Source of the DNA: a virus
Length of the DNA stretch: 36,515 nucleotides
Reading direction: 5' to 3' (one strand)
IMG/VR virus record: IMGVR_UViG_3300030118_001151
Location: 1-36,515 of that record
The notes below the pieces were generated by a model. The model was not told the origin of the DNA and searched no databases. It saw only the letters and a list, made by a program, of their open reading frames with translations. This document shows positions 17,233 through 25,980 of this stretch, piece by piece. Position numbers and translations under genes: made by a program. Every line of letters begins with the position of its first letter. Position 1 is the first letter of the stretch.

Positions 17233-18504
17233 TTATAAAATCCTGTAATTATTATCTGCTACACTTTGTGGAGCCGATTGTCTAGTATTAATTTCTTGCA
17301 AACCAACAGCAAGATACCTCATGGCATCACACGCATGGCTGCTCCAGTCGTGGACAGGTTTTGATCTAAACATTCTGTTTTTATCAATATACTTCCTGTG
17401 GTAATGTCTTAACGCATCTATTAAGTTTTTGCAATGATCTACATCAATCCAGCATCTAGGTAACATCATTGTTGTTGCGTGGATTCCATCTTCTAATGGA
17501 ATTTTTGGTACGACTTTAAACCTTAATCCTAATTGCGTAGCGACCTCTCTCCGAGTTTTACCATTTCCAAATTCGGTAACTTCAATGTCGTGTGGTGCAA
17601 AGTGATCTTTGTAGATATAATCTTTTTCATTAATCATCTTAATGTAATAAGGTAGACCTTGACCTTTCTCCTCATGGTAATCTATTATGTTAATGCTTCT
17701 GCCGAGCTGTTGATAAAATATTATACTACTGTGATCGGAAACCCCAAGATCCCATGCTGTAGATACTGGTAAGGCAGGATCGTAAGGAACTCTTGTAAGT
17801 TGTTTATCATCATCTAACTTTGCGATAACATCTCCATACACTGCTCCTTCAATGTTGGCTATCCAATCACATTCAAATTCTTGTAGGTACTTCTTCTCTC
17901 CCATTACTTCTTTTGCCTTGACCAACTCATCATTGTCTACAATCTTAGTATCTGATGCTTTAGCTTTGTAGTTAAACCAATCTTCCGCACCTTGTGCGTG
18001 TTGGTATAGTTCATAAAAGTTGTTGTTCATTCCCATAGGTGTACCAATAAAGACACAGTAGCCTTTTCTGTCAGATAGTGCTGGTCTAATTATTTCTGGA
18101 AATAACTTACTATTGACGTTTGCGTACTCATCAATTACGCAGCCATCAAGATATATACCTCTTAACCCATCTGGAGATTCGGAGCCTAGCAAGGTGATCC
18201 TAGCACCATTAGGTAGGTCTACACGCAGCTCTGTTTCGTTAAATTTGGTGTGGGGTATTTTAGCGGTAAACTGTTTCATATAATCCCATGCGATAGACTT
18301 TGCTTGTTTAAAGGTGGGTGCAATGTAAGCAAACCTAGGGTTGTTAAGTTTAGACAGTAATGCTGACCTAATTAGGTGGTTGATCATGCACACTGTTTTG
18401 CCAAATCTTCTATGGCATACTAATACATTCCATCTATGTTTATCTATTTCTCTATGTAAATGAGCTTGATGCTTCCTTGGTGTGTAGGGTATTTTAATAT
18501 CCAT
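17233..18504 (-). CDS. terL: Terminase large subunit, 423 aa
   Basis: ATP-driven DNA packaging motor and nuclease. The N-terminal ATPase has Walker A 'CHRRFGKT' (residues 30-37), Walker B 'LDGCVIDE' (about 119-126) and the coupling segment 'VFIGTPMG' (151-158). The C-terminal RNase H-like nuclease has 'TAWDLGVSDHSSIIFY' (Asp near 252) and a closing 'HACDAMRYLAVGL' (Asp near 393). Length fits the shorter terL proteins of podoviruses and gene-transfer-like phages. It opens the structural operon, but no terS lies immediately upstream; the candidate small subunit is about 4 kb away at 22471-22944. Confidence 0.95.
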   Translation of the reverse strand: MDIKIPYTPRKHQAHLHREIDKHRWNVLVCHRRFGKTVCMINHLIRSALLSKLNNPRFAYIAPTFKQAKSIAWDYMKQFTAKIPHTKFNETELRVDLPNGARITLLGSESPDGLRGIYLDGCVIDEYANVNSKLFPEIIRPALSDRKGYCVFIGTPMGMNNNFYELYQHAQGAEDWFNYKAKASDTKIVDNDELVKAKEVMGEKKYLQEFECDWIANIEGAVYGDVIAKLDDDKQLTRVPYDPALPVSTAWDLGVSDHSSIIFYQQLGRSINIIDYHEEKGQGLPYYIKMINEKDYIYKDHFAPHDIEVTEFGNGKTRREVATQLGLRFKVVPKIPLEDGIHATTMMLPRCWIDVDHCKNLIDALRHYHRKYIDKNRMFRSKPVHDWSSHACDAMRYLAVGLQEINTRQSAPQSVADNNYRIL

Positions 18505-18506
18505 AT

Positions 18507-18695
18507 TTAGTGTATCATGTCTGACTTCATACCAGATAGAGGTTGGTAATCAAAACCCATATTGAGCATAGCATAGCTAATAAATAGATCGGCTGCTACT
18601 TTATTGGGAAATCCATAAAACTTAATAATTACGTTGTTTGTATTTTCCTCAATATAAGCAACTGAATCTAAATCATCTGCAGTAAAGTAATCCAT
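18507..18695 (-). CDS. Small protein of unknown function upstream of terL, 62 aa
   Basis: A 62-residue acidic ORF reading 'DYFTADDLDSVAYIEENTNN' then 'VIIKFYGFPNKVAADLFISYA'. It ends 2 bp before terL. The alternating strand and helix pattern looks like a compact folded protein, but I do not recognise a family. The Shine-Dalgarno is poor. It is the first gene of the leftward late transcript. Confidence 0.7.
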   Translation of the reverse strand: MDYFTADDLDSVAYIEENTNNVIIKFYGFPNKVAADLFISYAMLNMGFDYQPLSGMKSDMIH

Positions 18696-18962
18696 ATACT
18701 ACATCTAGTGCATTTTAAAAAAAAATAAAACAGAAAAGTGTTTGTGTATAAAGAGGTGGGTGGCTCTAAGGGTGTCCTCAAGTCCGGTCTATATATAGAA
18801 AGAAAACTGCGGGTAAAATCTTGGGTATATGCTAAATTTAAAAATCAAAAAACTAGATAATCTCAGCTAAAATATATCCATTACAGATTAGTGATAATAG
18901 AAAGTTATTGGTAACTATTTAATTAATTAAATAATTTTTAATAGATAGATCAGAAATACTGT

Positions 18963-18994
18963 CGTTTGTTTTATCGTGAGAAAAAAAACAAACG
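18963..18994. repeat. Perfect 10-bp inverted repeat in the control region
   Basis: CGTTTGTTTT (18963-18972) and AAAACAAACG (18985-18994) are exact inverted copies separated by 12 bp. Transcribed in either direction, this forms a hairpin whose inner half is A-U rich. It could be an operator for a dimeric regulator, an origin element or a weak bidirectional terminator between the two arms. Confidence 0.75.
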
Positions 18995-19041
18995 CTGTTT
19001 ATAAATGGATACGATCTTTTATAAACTTTAATTATAAAATT

Positions 19042-19086
19042 TATTCTTGGTCCTTTTTATTCTTGGTCCTTTATTTCTGGTCCTTC
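19042..19086 (+). repeat. Three iteron-like repeats
   Basis: TATTCTTGGTCCTTT occurs exactly at 19042-19056 and 19058-19072, and a near copy, TATTTCTGGTCCTTC, follows at 19072-19086. Spacing is 14-16 bp. Tandem short direct repeats beside an A/T-rich stretch are the usual form of binding sites for a replication initiator or early regulator. Confidence 0.75.
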
Positions 19087-19133
19087 ATTAAATAAACATT
19101 AGAACAATTCTAAACTGTAAATATACAACACTG

Positions 19134-19161
19134 TTGCAAATATATCACACAAATAAATAAT
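19134..19161 (+). promoter_or_regulatory. Candidate sigma-70 promoter for early genes
   Basis: TTGCAA (19134-19139, four of six against TTGACA), a 16-bp spacer, then AATAAT (19156-19161, five of six against TATAAT). It lies about 90 bp upstream of the first early gene. In such A/T-rich DNA near matches arise by chance, so this is only a candidate, though host-type promoters are expected because no phage RNA polymerase is present. Confidence 0.4.
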
Positions 19162-19248
19162 AAATCTTTTTTGTATATGCCTTAATTATGCCTTATTAAT
19201 TTAAGATGCTTTGTTATGAAAAAAAACAAATCAACCAAAGGAAACACA

Positions 19249-19431
19249 ATGAATAAATCTTATATTTTAATAAACAAGTTAGATGTCAAATATAGAGAAA
19301 TTGAAAACTTTGATAATCAATTTGATGTTTTTAATTTTATATGTGGTCAATTAACTGACAAACAATTAAAAACTTGCTTAGCTTATGCAAGATCAAAACA
19401 AAAACAAGATAAATTAGAAGGGAATAAATAA
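19249..19431 (+). CDS. First early gene, small protein of unknown function, 60 aa
   Basis: I chose the ATG at 19249 over one at 19216 because AAAGGAAAC precedes it at proper distance and the upstream 11 codons are low-complexity Lys/Asn/Thr. The protein reads 'MNKSYILINKLDVKYREIEN', then 'FNFICGQLTDKQLKTCLAYA' and a charged tail. It is helical and unknown to me. Its stop overlaps the next ATG (TAATG), so the two are coupled. Confidence 0.75.
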   Translation: MNKSYILINKLDVKYREIENFDNQFDVFNFICGQLTDKQLKTCLAYARSKQKQDKLEGNK

Positions 19432-19649
19432 TGCAAAAATATAAACACAAAATAAATAATTGTGAAGATTGTGAAGGTCATGGATATTTTCAAGAAGTTG
19501 AAAGTAGTGGATTGATTTCAAAAAAGGACCCATATCACAAACCACACATTGAGAGATGTGATACTTGTCAATTCTTTACAAGTGATCTTGAAGCTGTTGG
19601 TTTTCATGCCACAAAATTGACACAAAAACAAATTAAATTTATTAAATAA
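19431..19649 (+). CDS. Small zinc-ribbon-like protein, 72 aa
   Basis: Two CxxC pairs, 'NCEDCEGHGYF' near the N-terminus and 'ERCDTCQFFTSD' about 30 residues later, give a four-cysteine zinc-binding pattern. The end, 'VGFHATKLTQKQIKFI', is basic. Small zinc proteins of this type are frequent in phage early regions, often as host-takeover or nucleic-acid-binding factors. No function can be assigned. Confidence 0.75.
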   Translation: MQKYKHKINNCEDCEGHGYFQEVESSGLISKKDPYHKPHIERCDTCQFFTSDLEAVGFHATKLTQKQIKFIK

Positions 19650-19673
19650 ACAACTAAGAAAGGAACAAAAAAA

Positions 19674-19955
19674 ATGACAAAAAAAATAACATTAAAATTC
19701 TATGATAATGAAAGTCATGGATATATTAAAATATCAAAATATGATCTTGAAGCATTTGATATAAATATAAAAGATTTTTCAGAATATTCATACTACAACT
19801 ATGAAAATGGTTGTTATTATTTTGAAGAAGATTGTGATGCAACTCTTTTAATAGATAAACTTAATGACAATGGTTACGAAGTCAATTTTGATACTAAACA
19901 TGTTAATTGTTATTATTTTGATAAACCTATATTTTCAAGAATAAATGTTGCCTAA
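19674..19955 (+). CDS. Acidic Tyr/Asp-rich early protein, 93 aa
   Basis: Highly acidic and aromatic: 'SKYDLEAFDINIKDFSEYSY', then 'GCYYFEEDCDATLLIDKLND'. The charge distribution recalls DNA-mimic inhibitors, but no specific similarity is recognised, and the composition is partly driven by A/T-rich codons. It has a strong cassette-type Shine-Dalgarno (AAGAAAGGAAC) before the ATG at 19674. Confidence 0.72.
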   Translation: MTKKITLKFYDNESHGYIKISKYDLEAFDINIKDFSEYSYYNYENGCYYFEEDCDATLLIDKLNDNGYEVNFDTKHVNCYYFDKPIFSRINVA

Positions 19956-20007
19956 ATCTAGCCGTATTTATTTATTAACTTTAATTAACTAACGAAAGGA
20001 AACTAAA

Positions 20008-20307
20008 ATGAAAGTACAAAACATGACAAGCCGAGCCGGTAACAAGGTCGCAAATCAATTTATAATTACTGATGACAAAGGCAACGAATATTTCCAAAGT
20101 TATCGTTCAATAATTGCAAAAAAAGATTATAACGATCATTCTGATCAAGTTGGACAAGGTGGTGTTAAAATATATCTTGATGAAAAATATTGGAACTATA
20201 GCAACACAACATCAAAATATAGAAATGATTTTTTAGATGAAGGTATTGCGATCACTAGATCAAAAATTAAATCTGGAGAGTACATCTTAACAGACTTAAA
20301 CAAATAG
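20008..20307 (+). CDS. DUF8033-like early protein, 99 aa
   Basis: Opening 'MKVQNMTSRAGNKVANQFII', then 'GNEYFQSYRSIIAKKD', 'YLDEKYWNYSNTTSKYRNDFL' and 'RSKIKSGEYILTDLN'. This is the conserved plan of a small phage protein family I know as DUF8033, of unknown function, common in marine phages. The length matches. The Shine-Dalgarno is AACGAAAGGAAAC. Codon use here is less extreme than in neighbours (for example AGCCGAGCCGGT), hinting at a more conserved gene. Confidence 0.82.
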   Translation: MKVQNMTSRAGNKVANQFIITDDKGNEYFQSYRSIIAKKDYNDHSDQVGQGGVKIYLDEKYWNYSNTTSKYRNDFLDEGIAITRSKIKSGEYILTDLNK

Positions 20308-20317
20308 AAAGGGAACT

Positions 20318-20476
20318 ATGACAAATCAAGAACTAAAAAAGAAAGTTATATCATCAATGAAAAAAGATGATGAACTAAAAAAATATGTAAAAGATTTTCA
20401 AGACTTATCAACTGAACAATTTGATATTTTAATGAAAATTATAGACAGAGCATATTTAAAAGTAAAAAACAAATAG
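20318..20476 (+). CDS. Small helical early protein, 52 aa
   Basis: ATG at 20318 follows AGAAAGGGAAC. The protein 'MTNQELKKKVISSMKKDDEL' then 'FQDLSTEQFDILMKIIDRAY' is entirely helical and amphipathic. Unknown family. Its stop lies inside the next gene's ribosome-binding cassette. Confidence 0.7.
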   Translation: MTNQELKKKVISSMKKDDELKKYVKDFQDLSTEQFDILMKIIDRAYLKVKNK

Positions 20477-20488
20477 AAAGCGAGGACC

Positions 20489-20671
20489 ATGAATAAAAAT
20501 AAATGGATAAACTTTAATAAACCAATGTTTATTGGAATAGATTATGATTGTAAATTTAACCCATTAAAAGATTGGCAACAAGCATTAAAATTAAAAATTG
20601 ATGATGACACTATTGGTTATGATTTTAAAATTGTTGCATATAAAAAAATAAAAATAGAAAGCGAGGAATAA
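20489..20671 (+). CDS. Small early protein, 60 aa
   Basis: Reads 'KWINFNKPMFIGIDYDCKFN', then 'DWQQALKLKIDDDTIGYDFK' and ends in 'KIESEE', where the last residues come from the next gene's Shine-Dalgarno cassette. Beta-strand-like pattern, unknown family. The next gene starts immediately after its stop. Confidence 0.7.
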   Translation: MNKNKWINFNKPMFIGIDYDCKFNPLKDWQQALKLKIDDDTIGYDFKIVAYKKIKIESEE

Positions 20672-20842
20672 ATGAAAGTTAAGGAATTAATAAAAAAATT
20701 AAAATCTTGTGATCAAAATAAAGATTTAAGATTTTATTATTTAAAAAATAATACTTTAAATGGCTGTCAATATGAAACAATAATTGAAATTGATGAACAA
20801 GTAGAATTGACAATTCAAGATGACACAGAAAGCGAGGAATAA
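20672..20842 (+). CDS. Small early protein, 56 aa
   Basis: Starts right after the previous stop behind GAAAGCGAGGAATAA. Reads 'MKVKELIKKLKSCDQNKDLR', then an acidic second half ending in 'DDTESEE'. From memory, the opening 'K-E-L-I-K-x-L' resembles small phage proteins of about this size. The function is unknown. Confidence 0.68.
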   Translation: MKVKELIKKLKSCDQNKDLRFYYLKNNTLNGCQYETIIEIDEQVELTIQDDTESEE

Positions 20843-20932
20843 ATGGAAACAATAATAACTTTATTAGGTGTAGGATATTTTATAGCTTTTATTATAATAG
20901 CTGTATTAGGTATAATGGCAACAATAGACTAG
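20843..20932 (+). CDS. Single-span membrane micropeptide, 29 aa
   Basis: ATG at 20843 sits directly after the stop of the previous gene and behind the AGAAAGCGAGG cassette. The product 'METIITLLGVGYFIAFIIIA' continues hydrophobic almost to the end, so it is one transmembrane helix with a short acidic tail. A role in the host membrane is likely, such as envelope modification, superinfection exclusion or inhibition, but cannot be specified. Good start signals argue for a real gene despite its size. Confidence 0.66.
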   Translation: METIITLLGVGYFIAFIIIAVLGIMATID

Positions 20933-20942
20933 AAAGGGAAAT

Positions 20943-21116
20943 ATGAATAAAAAAGTAGATGAATTAGGTAAAATGATTGATAATTGGAACAAGTACTTAG
21001 ATAAATTAAAGCAAGAAGAAGAACAAAATCTTGCCATATTTTATGATTATGATTTAGAGCCATTACCAAATGATTTGGTTGATATGGTAAATGAAAAAAA
21101 CAAAAGGGAAAAATAA
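20943..21116 (+). CDS. Small acidic helical early protein, 57 aa
   Basis: ATG at 20943 follows AGAAAGGGAAAT. Reads 'KVDELGKMIDNWNKYLDKLK', then acidic 'QEEEQNLAIFYDYDLEPLPN'. Amphipathic helices with a short loop; unknown family. The stop is 1 bp before the next ATG, in the same AAAGGGAAAAATAAA context. Confidence 0.68.
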   Translation: MNKKVDELGKMIDNWNKYLDKLKQEEEQNLAIFYDYDLEPLPNDLVDMVNEKNKREK

Positions 21117-21117
21117 A

Positions 21118-21339
21118 ATGGAATACAATAGCAAATGCGGGAGATACCATACTTATATTGGTCATGTGGTTTTTAATGACACAATGAGTAAATTTAAAGA
21201 TGAAGATAGCTGGTTTGTTGATGTGGTCAGTAAAAATAAATACATTGTAGATGAAGATTTTTACTCTGACTACAATGACGCATTAATAACATTTAAAGAA
21301 GCTAAAAAACAAATACAAAAAGATGAAAGGGAAAAATAA
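21118..21339 (+). CDS. Small early protein, 73 aa
   Basis: I chose the ATG at 21118 rather than 21091, because AAAGGGAAAAATAAA lies at proper distance and the longer form would overlap the previous gene. Reads 'MEYNSKCGRYHTYIGHVVFN', then 'EDSWFVDVVSKNKYIVDEDF' and a helical charged tail. Unknown family, alpha/beta in appearance. Confidence 0.7.
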   Translation: MEYNSKCGRYHTYIGHVVFNDTMSKFKDEDSWFVDVVSKNKYIVDEDFYSDYNDALITFKEAKKQIQKDEREK

Positions 21340-21588
21340 ATGATAAAAGCAATTAAATTATTAGGATTTAAAAGTTGGTTATGGTGGAAAAAAAAGGAAC
21401 TAACTTATAAATTTAAACAACGAAGATATTGGAAAGCGGTTGAAGTTATGAATGAAGTGTTAAACAGAAAATTGCAACAAGTAAATCAAGAGCCTAAAGA
21501 AAAAATATGGAAAGACCAAGCCTTTGAATTAAGAAGTGCGATTGAATTAGTTGAAGAAGATATACCATATCTTGACCCACATTATTAA
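21340..21588 (+). CDS. Basic Trp-rich early protein, 82 aa
   Basis: The stop of the previous gene is followed at once by this ATG. The N-terminus 'KLLGFKSWLWWKKKELTYKF' is basic and aromatic and could bind membrane or nucleic acid. The rest is a long helix ending 'ELRSAIELVEEDIPYLDPHY'. Unknown family. The stop overlaps the next ATG (TAATG). Confidence 0.7.
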   Translation: MIKAIKLLGFKSWLWWKKKELTYKFKQRRYWKAVEVMNEVLNRKLQQVNQEPKEKIWKDQAFELRSAIELVEEDIPYLDPHY

Positions 21589-21737
21589 TGAATAAACAAC
21601 TACAACAACAAAATTTAAAAGAACTTATGAGATTAACACTCATAAATATTTTAAATGCTAAAGGTGTAATATACACCTATTATAAACAACAAGAAAGGAA
21701 ACTAAATGAACAAGGAAAGCAAATTAACAGAACATGA
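21588..21737 (+). CDS. Small Gln-rich early protein, 49 aa
   Basis: The ATG overlaps the previous stop (TAATG). Reads 'MNKQLQQQNLKELMRLTLIN', then 'AKGVIYTYYKQQERKLNEQG'. Its last 32 bp overlap the next gene in another frame, and its 3' part contains that gene's Shine-Dalgarno cassette. Unknown function, moderate confidence. Confidence 0.6.
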   Translation: MNKQLQQQNLKELMRLTLINILNAKGVIYTYYKQQERKLNEQGKQINRT

Positions 21738-21861
21738 ATTAATCAAAAGACTTGATAATGAGTTTGATGATGTAGATTTTTCAATAAGAGATTGTGCAAC
21801 AAAAGGTGTTATTGCTAAAGTTTATTTTTATGAAAAAAAACTAGAACAAGAAAAACAATAA
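21706..21861 (+). CDS. Small early protein, 51 aa
   Basis: ATG at 21706 follows CAAGAAAGGAAACTAA. Reads 'LTEHELIKRLDNEFDDVDFS', then 'CATKGVIAKVYFYEKKLEQE'. It overlaps the previous ORF by 32 bp. Unknown family. Confidence 0.66.
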   Translation: MNKESKLTEHELIKRLDNEFDDVDFSIRDCATKGVIAKVYFYEKKLEQEKQ

Positions 21862-21878
21862 ACAAGAAAGGGAAAATA

Positions 21879-22094
21879 ATGTACATAGACAAATACAAAG
21901 TAGAAATAAAAGGTAATAAATATCACGAGAAAACTCATAAGAAAATGACAGATCAAGTGTTAGCTACCTATGAAAGCAATGATGGTATGAATATTAAAGA
22001 ATTAGCAAATATTCTTGAACAACTTGCGGATAGCCATCAAGCACATAACAATATTACTTTTAATATTGTAATGAAACAATACGATCACGATTAA
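21879..22094 (+). CDS. Small early protein, 71 aa
   Basis: A clear Shine-Dalgarno (AAGAAAGGGAAAATA) precedes the ATG at 21879. Reads 'KYKVEIKGNKYHEKTHKKMT', then 'MNIKELANILEQLADSHQAH'. The second half forms a helix-turn-helix-like pair of helices, but no recognisable DNA-binding motif. Unknown family. Confidence 0.7.
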   Translation: MYIDKYKVEIKGNKYHEKTHKKMTDQVLATYESNDGMNIKELANILEQLADSHQAHNNITFNIVMKQYDHD

Positions 22095-22110
22095 GAAAGG
22101 AAAAAATAAA

Positions 22111-22293
22111 ATGGAATATATAAATTTAGATTTTGTAAAACCAGATAAAAATTGTGTAAGTTGTGATCATTATAATGACTATACTTGTTTTGAGTGTGAA
22201 CATTTACAAGTGAAAAAAAAATATCCTAATGCAGTTTATGACGTATATGTAATTCCACCAGAGTGGTATATAAAAAAAATAGAAGGGAGATAA
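22111..22293 (+). CDS. Cys-rich small early protein, 60 aa
   Basis: 'NCVSCDHYNDYTCFECEHLQ' gives a CxxC...CxxC pattern in residues 15-30, likely one zinc site, followed by 'VYDVYVIPPEWYIKKIEGR'. Small Cys4 proteins of this type are common in phage early operons. Function unknown. Confidence 0.7.
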   Translation: MEYINLDFVKPDKNCVSCDHYNDYTCFECEHLQVKKKYPNAVYDVYVIPPEWYIKKIEGR

Positions 22294-22294
22294 A

Positions 22295-22474
22295 ATGAAA
22301 AAATATAAAATAGTTATTTATGATCCATATAAAGTTTATGAACATAGTGATTTATTAAGTAATGAAACACAAGCATTAGAGATAACAAGTGGAGATGATG
22401 GTATTCCAGAATTTAAAAATAGATCAGAAGTTAAAGAGTGGATAAAAGATTATATTGAAATATTAGAATATTAA
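22295..22474 (+). CDS. Last gene of the early small-ORF train, 59 aa
   Basis: ATG at 22295 follows AGAAGGGAGATAAA. Reads 'KKYKIVIYDPYKVYEHSDLL', then 'DDGIPEFKNRSEVKEWIKDY'. Its beta-strand start and helical end look like a folded protein. The stop overlaps the end of the convergent terS candidate by 4 bp, so transcripts from both sides collide here. Confidence 0.7.
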   Translation: MKKYKIVIYDPYKVYEHSDLLSNETQALEITSGDDGIPEFKNRSEVKEWIKDYIEILEY

Positions 22475-22944
22475 TCTTTATTATCAGAGGGTATATCAAC
22501 TATATCCTCTGATACATCAATCATATCACTTTGATTATCTTCCCATGAAATTTTAATTGATTGATCAGTTTTAACATTCTGGACCTTATTATCTGAATAT
22601 AAATCTGTAAGTTTGTTAGCCAAAAAGGTAATGAACTTTGTTTTTTCCCTTATCCATAGTATCTGATTAGGGTTTTCTATCTCTTGGTACTGAAAGACTT
22701 GCAATAATTTATCTATTAAAGTTTGAACACCATTTTTTCTAGCTTCAGTTATTCTTTCATTCATCTCGGGATTTTTTTTTAAGAAATGATAAAATTTCAT
22801 CAAGCTGAACTCGTACTGTTTTTCCTCTAGTATTTCGGTAAGAGTTAGACCTCTCGTGAGTTTTTCGCAAATTGTATCGGCTTGGCTCGTTGTTATCAAT
22901 TCTGACTTTGACTTGGTTGTAATAGTATTCTTTGAGTTGGTCAT
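22471..22944 (-). CDS. terS: Terminase small subunit, Sf6 type, 157 aa
   Basis: Recognises phage DNA and starts packaging with TerL. Residues 20-75 fit the Sf6-type small terminase: 'QADTICEKLTRGLTLTEI' is the DNA-binding helix-turn-helix opening (A-D-x-I-C-x-x-L-x-x-G), 'LMKFYHFLKKNPEMNERI' corresponds to the recognition helix and 'W-L-x-x-N-P-E-F' element, and 'EARKNGVQTLIDKLL' starts the oligomerisation helices. A later 'IREKTKFITFLANKL' parallels the family's K-W-x-A-S-K-L segment. It is about 4 kb from terL, in a leftward island, and its first 188 bp overlap the upstream gene in another frame. Confidence 0.82.
   Translation of the reverse strand: MTNSKNTITTKSKSELITTSQADTICEKLTRGLTLTEILEEKQYEFSLMKFYHFLKKNPEMNERITEARKNGVQTLIDKLLQVFQYQEIENPNQILWIREKTKFITFLANKLTDLYSDNKVQNVKTDQSIKISWEDNQSDMIDVSEDIVDIPSDNKD
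22482..22514. terminator. Hairpin at the convergent junction
   Basis: TATCAGAGG (22482-22490) and CCTCTGATA (22506-22514) are exact inverted copies; with an inner ATAT pairing the stem reaches 13 bp with a 2-nt bulge. It lies inside the 3' end of terS, 8 bp past the stop of the last early gene. No T-run follows on either side, so intrinsic termination is uncertain. It could still block or process rightward transcripts. Confidence 0.5.
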
Positions 22945-23173
22945 CTGTATAGTTCCTAAACTGTTGTAATTTACTTAATTGTTTGATCCTCGTTTCATGT
23001 GTGTAGTTTTTCTTTCTAAAGCCTTTAACATTCTGATAGCCATGATACTTACAATAATATGTACCATTTGCAAGTTCATAACCTTTCATTTTACATGGTA
23101 TTAGTTTTCCAATACGTCTACCAGCTCTCGTAAAGCCTTGACAGAAAACCTTACGCATTGGTCTACCTACCAT
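22757..23173 (-). CDS. Cys/His protein with basic C-terminus, 138 aa
   Basis: The N-terminal part has a cysteine/histidine pattern, 'KVFCQGFTRAGRR', 'LIPCKMKGYELANGTYYCKY' and 'HGYQNVKG' (C11, C27, C41, H44). This resembles the short phage proteins with a C-x(n)-G-x-C-x-x-HG zinc motif. The remainder is basic and Tyr/Asn-rich, ending 'VQLDEILSFLKKKSRDE'. The last 188 bp overlap terS, which is read one nucleotide further along. Its ATG overlaps the previous stop. Function unknown; DNA or RNA binding is likely. Confidence 0.75.
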   Translation of the reverse strand: MVGRPMRKVFCQGFTRAGRRIGKLIPCKMKGYELANGTYYCKYHGYQNVKGFRKKNYTHETRIKQLSKLQQFRNYTDDQLKEYYYNQVKVRIDNNEPSRYNLRKTHERSNSYRNTRGKTVRVQLDEILSFLKKKSRDE

Positions 23174-23868
23174 TATTTTTTCGGTTTACCTTTCCAATCA
23201 AGATTATTACGTTTATTAAAAGCAACCTTTTCTCTATATCTAGGGTTACTATTTTTCTTAATCTTGGTTAGTTCATTAATTATTTTTTGAGGATGTACAT
23301 AGGTAGCCTTACTTTCACGATCCAATTCAATTTTCTTTGCTTTGGCTAACTTTATATAATATGGATTTTTAGTATCTGAATTAAGTTCTGACAGGGGGAG
23401 CTTTGATAAGTTTAATATTAAACTATCTTTATCATTCCTATTATCTCTTATAATCTTTTCTATATTATTAATGTATATTGTTTCTTCTAATACTGATCTT
23501 TTATATACATCTGAGTGATCTTTTTTATACTTCTTATTATTATTAGTGTATAAAATTGATCCATCTGATTCAGTTTTAAGGAATAATTGGTTAATTTTAT
23601 AGCTTTTACCGGACCTACCTCTAACAGTAGATATAATATGTAATTTTTCCAAAGTATTTAAAGTTCTTCTTACAGTTATACGAGATAGTTTGGTTTCTTT
23701 AGCGATTGTAGAGTATCTCAAGCCACATTCATAGTTATTCTTCTTCCATGCGTGTTTCATTAAAGATAAATAGCAGTTCAAACAATTAGATTTTTTAGTA
23801 CCACTTAATTTATCAAGGTGTCCATAAAGTTTGTAGGTTATGTGTAAAAAAGCACGATTATTGTTCAT
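23173..23868 (-). CDS. Winged-helix DNA-binding protein, 231 aa
   Basis: Residues about 15-100 read as a winged helix: 'NCYLSLMKHAWKKNNYECGL', 'YSTIAKETKLSRITVRRTLN' (helix-turn-helix, recognition helix 'RITVRRTLNTLEKL') and 'HIISTVRGRSGKSYKIN' (the wing). Such domains occur in phage replication initiators (RepA/DnaD style) and in regulators. The C-terminal half is Lys/Asn-rich and probably extended. Position next to terS and a nuclease-like gene is compatible with a regulator or replication factor. The two cannot be separated from sequence. Confidence 0.78.
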   Translation of the reverse strand: MNNNRAFLHITYKLYGHLDKLSGTKKSNCLNCYLSLMKHAWKKNNYECGLRYSTIAKETKLSRITVRRTLNTLEKLHIISTVRGRSGKSYKINQLFLKTESDGSILYTNNNKKYKKDHSDVYKRSVLEETIYINNIEKIIRDNRNDKDSLILNLSKLPLSELNSDTKNPYYIKLAKAKKIELDRESKATYVHPQKIINELTKIKKNSNPRYREKVAFNKRNNLDWKGKPKK

Positions 23869-24949: not shown

Positions 24950-25047
24950 AAGTCCTTTCTTTATCTAATTTGTATCTATATATATTATATTATTTTCTTT
25001 ACAACAAAAAAAATATGTGTATAGATGGTGGAAAACTAAAGGAACTT
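24950..25047. promoter_or_regulatory. Divergent promoter/operator region between cro-like gene and exonuclease
   Basis: About 100 bp between leftward and rightward starts. It contains TTGTATC followed by alternating TATATATATTATATTATTTT, supplying -10-like hexamers on both strands. AAAGGACTT is the Shine-Dalgarno of the regulator; AAAGGAACTT is that of the exonuclease. No exact operator palindrome stands out because of the A/T bias. Confidence 0.55.
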
Positions 25048-25980
25048 ATGAAACTCAGAGAAAAAACAAAAGAACAATTAATAGAAGAAGCATTTGCAAT
25101 ATTCAATGGTGGAGATGGATTAGATCATTGGTCCTATACCTCAACTTCTACACCTTTTGCAAAAAATTTAATTCAATATACTTTTTCGGAAAAAATTAGA
25201 AGGTCTTGGTCATGGAGATACAAGCCTAACTTTGGCAACCTTGTAAACAATACAGTACAAAGATTGATTGCAGATGTTTTATTCAAAACAAAAACCTCTG
25301 TCGCTTCAGAATGGGACCGAGATTATAATGTTTGTTTTAATAAAGAACTAGAAGAAATAAATAAAAAAGATCCGGTAGATCAAAAAGATGAATATGCAAG
25401 AAAAGAAATGGTAAGTTATGCACACGATTGTATAGGTATTACAAAAAAAGTAGTGAAAGATTTAGTAGGAACTGATAAATTAGTTTGCGAAAAATATGTT
25501 GATCACAAAGAGTTTACCATGATCAAACCGATAACCGGTAGAATAGATTATCTGACAGATAAATTATTTATAGAATTAAAAACAAAACCACCAAATATTA
25601 AAAAGGTTAGTAATAAAAATCAGTGGAATATGAGTACACAAAATTTACCCACTGAACCTGCAATGGATAACCTAACACAGACTTCATTTTATTATATGAC
25701 TACCAAGAAGGTACCATATTTAATTTATGTAAATGATAAAGATCATATTATCTTTGATCAATCGCATGAGTTAATGAAGAAAGAACATCTGGAGCATTTA
25801 TACTTTAAGATGGTTGAAAAGATTATACTTTGGGAACGTATGATTATGTTTTGCAAAGGTAATCTGTCTGAACTTGCATTGATGTGTGAGCCACCAGACA
25901 TGAACCATTTTTTTTATTATAAAGATTTGGCTCCGGAACAATTAAAACTAATAACTAACCTATGGGGAATAAAAGCATGA
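25048..25980 (+). CDS. PD-(D/E)XK exonuclease, RecB/lambda-exonuclease-like, 310 aa
   Basis: I chose the ATG at 25048, because AAAGGAAC precedes it; upstream in-frame ATGs (24970, 25015) lie in the A/T-rich promoter region and lack a good site. The nuclease core is 'TGRIDYLTDKLFIELKTKPP' with Asp near 167, Glu near 176 and Lys near 178, followed by 'NLTQTSFYYMTTKKVPYLIYV' (Gln-x-x-x-Tyr motif near 211). That combination is typical of RecB-like nucleases. Paired with the ERF annealing protein two genes downstream, it forms a Red-type recombination set that resects DNA ends. Its stop overlaps the next ATG (ATGA). Confidence 0.86.
   Translation: MKLREKTKEQLIEEAFAIFNGGDGLDHWSYTSTSTPFAKNLIQYTFSEKIRRSWSWRYKPNFGNLVNNTVQRLIADVLFKTKTSVASEWDRDYNVCFNKELEEINKKDPVDQKDEYARKEMVSYAHDCIGITKKVVKDLVGTDKLVCEKYVDHKEFTMIKPITGRIDYLTDKLFIELKTKPPNIKKVSNKNQWNMSTQNLPTEPAMDNLTQTSFYYMTTKKVPYLIYVNDKDHIIFDQSHELMKKEHLEHLYFKMVEKIILWERMIMFCKGNLSELALMCEPPDMNHFFYYKDLAPEQLKLITNLWGIKA

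Follow-up and report, generated by a model that had tools for sequence, protein, structure and literature searches.

Can 188 bp of phage DNA encode, in two frames at once, the DNA-binding domain of a small terminase and the end of a neighbouring protein, with both products under selection? The question is raised by a locus of the virus record IMGVR_UViG_3300030118_001151 (IMG/VR), which was analysed over a whole stretch of 36,515 nucleotides (the window). The genes involved are terS, encoding the small terminase (TerS), and the gene of a Cys/His protein (CH). An earlier note on this DNA had described a 188-bp out-of-frame overlap that contains the whole TerS helix-turn-helix (HTH) and the C-terminal 62 residues of CH, and had called it an unusual overlap of two recognisable folds. 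The coordinates proved to be exact, with TerS in the +1 frame relative to CH, and sequence comparison among relatives confirms a real terminal overlap, on the same strand (+1), between two functional genes.

Source of the window and gene layout

The CH protein matched 17 GenBank records and TerS matched 20, all of them from Pelagibacter (SAR11) phages, and searches of IMG/VR returned 73 to 80 relatives per protein. Since the GenBank matches of the two proteins include Skadi, HTVC203P, Lederberg, Greip and HTVC010P, the window was assigned to the HTVC010P-type pelagiphages.

The features of the region are listed in Table 1. The stop codon of the upstream gene shares one base with the CH start, and on this basis a single operon of that gene, CH and terS is presumed. 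The overlap ends at TerS codon 62. No possible TerS start is present 5' of its ATG, as the frame is open for just ten codons further and contains no start codon there. A plus-strand open reading frame of 336 aa (24970-25980) gave no convincing match in Pfam or PHROG; Skadi-1 has, in the equivalent position, a gene labelled putative nuclease.

Table 1. Coordinates of the terS and CH genes and of features within them in the window
Feature	Position	Strand	Basis
terS, Sf6-type small terminase, 157 aa, ATG start	22471..22944	minus	PF20901, phrog_1482, AF2 model
CH gene, 138 aa, ATG start, zinc-finger-like	22757..23173	minus	homologue of HGGxSTG-domain proteins (family alignment)
Dual-coding overlap, 188 bp, TerS +1 relative to CH	22757..22944	minus	coordinates and dual-frame constraint
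Upstream gene, HTH_36 / replication-initiator-like	23173..23868	minus	stop overlaps CH start by 1 bp
TerS HTH helix 1, residues 19-30, within overlap	22855..22890	minus	AF2 model, pLDDT about 85-89 here
TerS HTH helix 2, residues 35-40, within overlap	22825..22842	minus	AF2 model
TerS helix 3, presumed recognition helix, residues 48-57, within overlap	22774..22803	minus	AF2 model
CH Cys/His motif C11-C27-C41-H44, invariant, outside overlap	23042..23143	minus	invariant alignment columns
CH tail, residues 77-138, basic, helical, overprinted on terS	22760..22945	minus	AF2 model; absent from HTVC028P-type homologues
AGGA, Shine-Dalgarno-like site for TerS, inside CH coding sequence	22954..22957	minus	AGG preference at CH Arg73
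A9 run common to CH KKK and TerS LKKN, near CH stop	22772..22780	minus	sequence

Small terminase and its helix-turn-helix

TerS scored 32.1 bits (E 1.3e-7) against PF20901 (Sf6_terminase), which is above the curated cut-off of 27, and matched phrog_1482 (terminase small subunit) with an E value of 3.5e-10. A PDB sequence search with the TerS family or the CH family returned nothing meaningful. When the AF2 model of TerS was searched with Foldseek, the six best PDB matches were all Sf6 gp1 (3hef, 4dzj, 4dzp; probability 1.00, best E 5.4e-3). The structure models were built from alignments of the IMG/VR loci and the window only, and the mean pLDDT was moderate (66) for both TerS and CH, and poor in the CH zinc region.

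In sequence and predicted fold, TerS resembles Sf6 gp1 in having an HTH followed by helical oligomerisation regions, and the two long helices after the HTH are mostly outside the overlap. In the model, the double-coded part of TerS is the whole Sf6-type HTH, as the earlier note had held. The locus differs from Sf6 gp1 in this double coding and in the position of terS, which lies about 4 kb from terL (window 18504-22471) behind oppositely oriented genes. Many small plus-strand open reading frames lie between the two terminase genes, most of them with no function known in related records.

Cys/His protein

The CH gene is retained in about 150 loci. Its Cys/His motif is encoded upstream of the overlap, which leaves the TerS HTH as the only recognisable fold to be double-coded, and the claim of two overlapping folds did not hold. 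The double-coded tail has no recognised fold and is predicted to form helices at residues 77-93, 99-109 and 120-137 (pLDDT about 87 at residues 81-90). The window CH gave no direct family match in Pfam, PHROGs or NCBIfam, Foldseek found no PDB match for the CH model, tail included, and no relatives of the tail are known outside the CH family.

In the Cys/His region, the CH family alignment matched a short HGGxSTG homologue from the more distant pelagiphage HTVC028P (hhalign probability 95.9, E 6e-9), and the Cys/Cys/Cys-His metal-site layout of HGGxSTG proteins is present in the invariant residues of CH. Against the HGGxSTG profile NF041373 (cut-off 29 bits), a relative with the long type of CH (L053) scored 20.6 bits (E 2.7e-4) and short homologues scored 37-43 bits, whereas the window CH was unmatched. 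Owing to the family alignment match and the sub-cut-off score of L053, CH is classed, on sequence grounds, as a derived homologue of HGGxSTG-domain proteins and not as a member of the family. It lacks the signature (CKYHGY is present instead) and carries the 62-residue tail, which is missing from the short homologues. A literature search found nothing on HGGxSTG.

The close homologues above the profile cut-off are found directly upstream of terS, in every locus examined where TerS was found. The HGGxSTG-domain proteins of other phages are located at the head of the packaging region or are weak matches to phrog_6177, phrog_9231 and phrog_10899, which are filed as small terminases. From this position beside terS and from the similar domains in proteins filed as small terminases, our best guess, a tentative and somewhat doubtful one, is that CH could be a packaging-initiation accessory beside TerS.

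Conservation of both frames

A set of 96 distinct loci with both genes complete was obtained from 98 by leaving out the partial locus L063 and the short-overlap HTVC028P, with duplicates removed. Both frames are open in all 96, TerS is always in the +1 frame with ATG as its first in-frame start, and the overlap is 176-263 bp long. Identity to the window is 37-100% for TerS and falls to 24-32% for CH. The position of the CH stop varies by a few codons between relatives, giving proteins of 137-161 aa. A partly overlapping set centred on HTVC010P contains 32 pairs that agree, and two more in which TerS starts at a GTG located a few bases 5' of the ATG.

Two single contigs are exceptions, each possibly an assembly error. 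An 80-nt deletion in the overlap of L048 (region 300-370) breaks both genes, and the TerS frame of L365 is interrupted downstream of the overlap. Relatives that keep only one frame open, or an indel that merges the frames, would have spoken against two genes according to the earlier note; the deletion in L048 is the sole frame-breaking indel in the overlap, and it merges nothing.

Translation and the A9 run

TerS and CH would both be made from one mRNA, with TerS most likely produced by internal initiation at its own ATG, often preceded, about 10 nt earlier and within CH, by an AGGA, and not by frameshifting. The codon AGG is used for CH Arg73 in 43 of 53 Arg codons versus 85 of 696 elsewhere, in related and hence non-independent sequences (the tree has 12 codon changes). 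A Shine-Dalgarno-like site was detected in 44 of 82 loci, against a same-phase background of 23%, and since it is present in just these it is not obligatory for TerS.

The A9 run near the CH stop might be a slippage site that joins the two frames and yields minor amounts of a CH-TerS fusion or an HTH-only TerS, which would then be the purpose of the overlap. It occurs in 55 of 82 relatives, with A8 in another 5, versus one of 82 for A9 in an equally long downstream stretch of terS. The run is, however, fully forced by the CH KKK and TerS LKKN and needs no selection of its own; it is absent in the HTVC010P clade, and runs of A8-A10 are common in this genome. We consider slippage as the purpose of the overlap very unlikely. 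Equally unlikely is a functional coupling of the frames in which slippage gives a third product (CH joined to the TerS oligomerisation domain, or the HTH-only TerS); if this were true, the overlap would be a packaging-switch module and not only a means of genome compression.

Selection in both frames

A further question is whether both frames are maintained as proteins. Synonymous shuffling with the TerS protein and codon pool fixed left the CH frame open by chance with P = 0.005 in the window (median 0.0005 over the 96 loci), and the reverse shuffle left the TerS frame open with P = 0.0085 (median 0.003 over relatives).

TerS might be the only protein encoded, the CH frame past residue 76 or so being accidentally open. 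Long +1 runs do occur in this AT-rich genome, where 1 of 609 such open runs inside other genes of the window reaches 62 codons or more; short CH homologues also exist, and the CH frame closes in HTVC028P-type phages. In simulations on the tree under TerS constraint, however, a mean of 5 (maximum 22) of 47 CH frames stayed open versus 47 of 47 observed, and CH identity was 0.48 (sd 0.02) versus 0.67 observed. Two tail residues, Y83 and Y100, are invariant across relatives down to 24% identity.

Substitution patterns point the same way. Parsimony changes per site were counted on a tree of 82 sequences (<97% identical); these rates are relative only, because multiple changes are undercounted. Third-position changes in TerS amount to 13.8 per site downstream of the overlap versus 8.0 inside, and those in CH to 11.5 upstream versus 4.3 inside. 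Changes were also classed by their effect in both frames in 51 window-clade sequences, with bootstrap over codons. The ratio dNN/dNS, which reflects selection on CH, is 0.77 (0.51-1.15) in the overlap versus 4.61 (2.54-11.97) in downstream terS, where that frame is empty, a drop of about six-fold. Changes silent in TerS that alter CH fall from 2.01 in the control to 1.15 in the overlap, and those creating a CH stop fall from 2.06 to 0.52. A few of the stop-creating changes counted are probably an artefact of classing one change at a time when two changes occur in one codon on one branch. Small subsets, namely the HTVC010P clade (5 and 6 sequences) and the L115-type (10), show the same direction. 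The dual-frame constraint that the earlier note had proposed to look for in relatives was thus found, and an accidental CH frame is hardly credible.

Low silent change might also mark a DNA site or an RNA structure in place of a second protein. The pac site is located within the small-terminase gene of some phages, such as P22, and a pac or cos site in terS could act in this way. A DNA or RNA element would suppress doubly silent changes too, yet these are not reduced in the overlap (4.96 versus 2.21 and 2.71 in the controls, from just eight codons). Because doubly silent changes are frequent while TerS-silent, CH-altering ones drop, what is constrained is the coding, not the DNA or RNA, and the DNA-site explanation was rejected. 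No RNA structure beyond that of shuffled sequences was detected in the overlap (z = 0.09), and an element would leave the open CH frame unexplained, so that this account is barely plausible either.

The converse, in which CH alone is coding in the overlap, TerS starts downstream and the HTH reading is accidental, agrees with the shortened TerS of eight GenBank phages (most records) and has a next to negligible chance of being right, as the annotated starts are mutually discordant (codons 29, 49, 55 and 61), the part left out has a match to Sf6_terminase and a modelled fold like that of Sf6 gp1, the upstream start is ATG in 96 of 96 loci, the HTH is kept in HTVC028P-type phages with no overlap there, dNN/dSN (TerS frame) is 0.39 in the overlap, and a simulation under CH constraint left a mean of 4.8 (maximum 22) of 47 TerS frames open.

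Selection on both genes as proteins over the shared 176-263 bp, with the TerS HTH whole in the overlap and the CH part predicted as a helical basic tail, is thus very strongly favoured by the sequences and the structure models together.

Probable growth of the overlap

Relatives with shorter overlaps suggest how the arrangement may have arisen. HTVC028P contains, at the corresponding place, an unannotated HGGxSTG protein of 73 aa (L162 1311-1532; NF041373 E 1.2e-10) that overlaps TerS by 41 bp. In HTVC028P-type phages, CH is 70-75 aa long, has no tail and overlaps terS by 38-53 bp, ending before the HTH, and none of 30 such sequences keeps the CH frame open through the HTH. Third positions of TerS at the HTH changed at 3.76 versus 4.55 downstream in this short type (ratio 0.83, versus about 0.6 in the window type), a contrast that is supportive only because the intervals overlap. 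The overlaps of other groups measure about 35-65, 80, 92-98 and 128 bp, all in the +1 frame. In one HTVC028P-type contig (L217, 3001-3330 region) the CH stop has been lost, giving a CH of 109 aa and an overlap of 143 bp, possibly a snapshot of overlap growth.

On a maximum-likelihood TerS tree, the long-overlap forms all lie on one side of one branch (support 100/99), whereas short and middle lengths interchange several times. As judged from this tree, the long overlap arose once and is fixed in HTVC010P-type pelagiphages. Because the tree lacks an outgroup root, the direction from short to long was inferred from how widely the TerS HTH (present in all) and short HGGxSTG proteins without the tail are distributed. 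Loss of stop codons was probably what let CH extend into terS. The ancestral CH would have been a short HGGxSTG zinc-finger protein of about 70-75 aa ending a few codons into terS; successive stop-codon losses would have extended its frame stepwise in the 3' direction through the terS HTH codons, and the long extension would have been fixed once, under selection, before the HTVC010P-type clade diversified.

Public annotation

None of the 12 GenBank records inspected has both genes annotated in full (the HTVC010P-type records carry the locus labels L152-L160 and L166). In Skadi, HTVC203P, Lederberg, HTVC204P, HTVC100P, Greip, HTVC024P and HTVC035P, TerS starts at codons 29-61, which cuts the HTH, and is named 'DNA binding protein'. 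The records of HTVC034P and HTVC010P contain the full TerS and no annotated CH. The record of HTVC028P contains TerS, with a start placed 24 codons 5' of the one that relatives conserve, and CH is unannotated. We infer that these gaps are caused by the overlap limits of gene callers.

The 'putative methylase' of the pelagiphages Skadi, Lederberg and Greip is the same gene as CH. A methylase gene has been stated to likely protect Skadi-1 from host restriction (PMC10504331, section 7). This claim appears to rest on CH, since CH is the sole methylase of the Skadi-1 record (Skadi1_15, L166 3598-3999). The window protein is, however, a zinc-finger-like protein of 138 aa in which no methyltransferase domain or motif was detected in Pfam, PHROGs or NCBIfam, and no PDB fold was matched. 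With no methyltransferase family match, the reading of CH as a methylase was rejected.

Comparison with known overlaps and significance

A literature search found nothing on overlapping genes of pelagiphages. The genes A and C of phiX174 form a terminal overlap that arose from a C-terminal extension (review PMC8227390). The pair described here resembles phiX174 A/C in that a C-terminal extension of the upstream gene is overprinted on the start of the downstream gene and in that coding density rises gradually among relatives. It differs in belonging to a tailed dsDNA phage with a genome of 35-36 kb, and in that the overprinted part is the recognised DNA-binding domain of a packaging protein. 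The overlap had been called unusual; it is real and includes a whole HTH, but other genomes have it too, and viruses were already known to have long terminal overlaps. The pair is a new, strongly supported case of the known viral terminal overlap by C-terminal extension. It stands out in that a packaging protein has its entire DNA-binding domain overprinted, that the trait is fixed throughout an abundant group of phages and that intermediate steps survive in relatives.

Phages of the HTVC010P type rank among the ocean's most abundant viruses. Skadi is dominant at high latitudes (PMC10504331). The small terminase of this group is unrecognised or decapitated in most of the records examined, so a core packaging gene can stay hidden behind an overlap that annotation does not expect. 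With their graded overlaps (35 to 263 bp, always +1), the relatives allow a direct test of how a terminal overlap grows into an essential DNA-binding domain.
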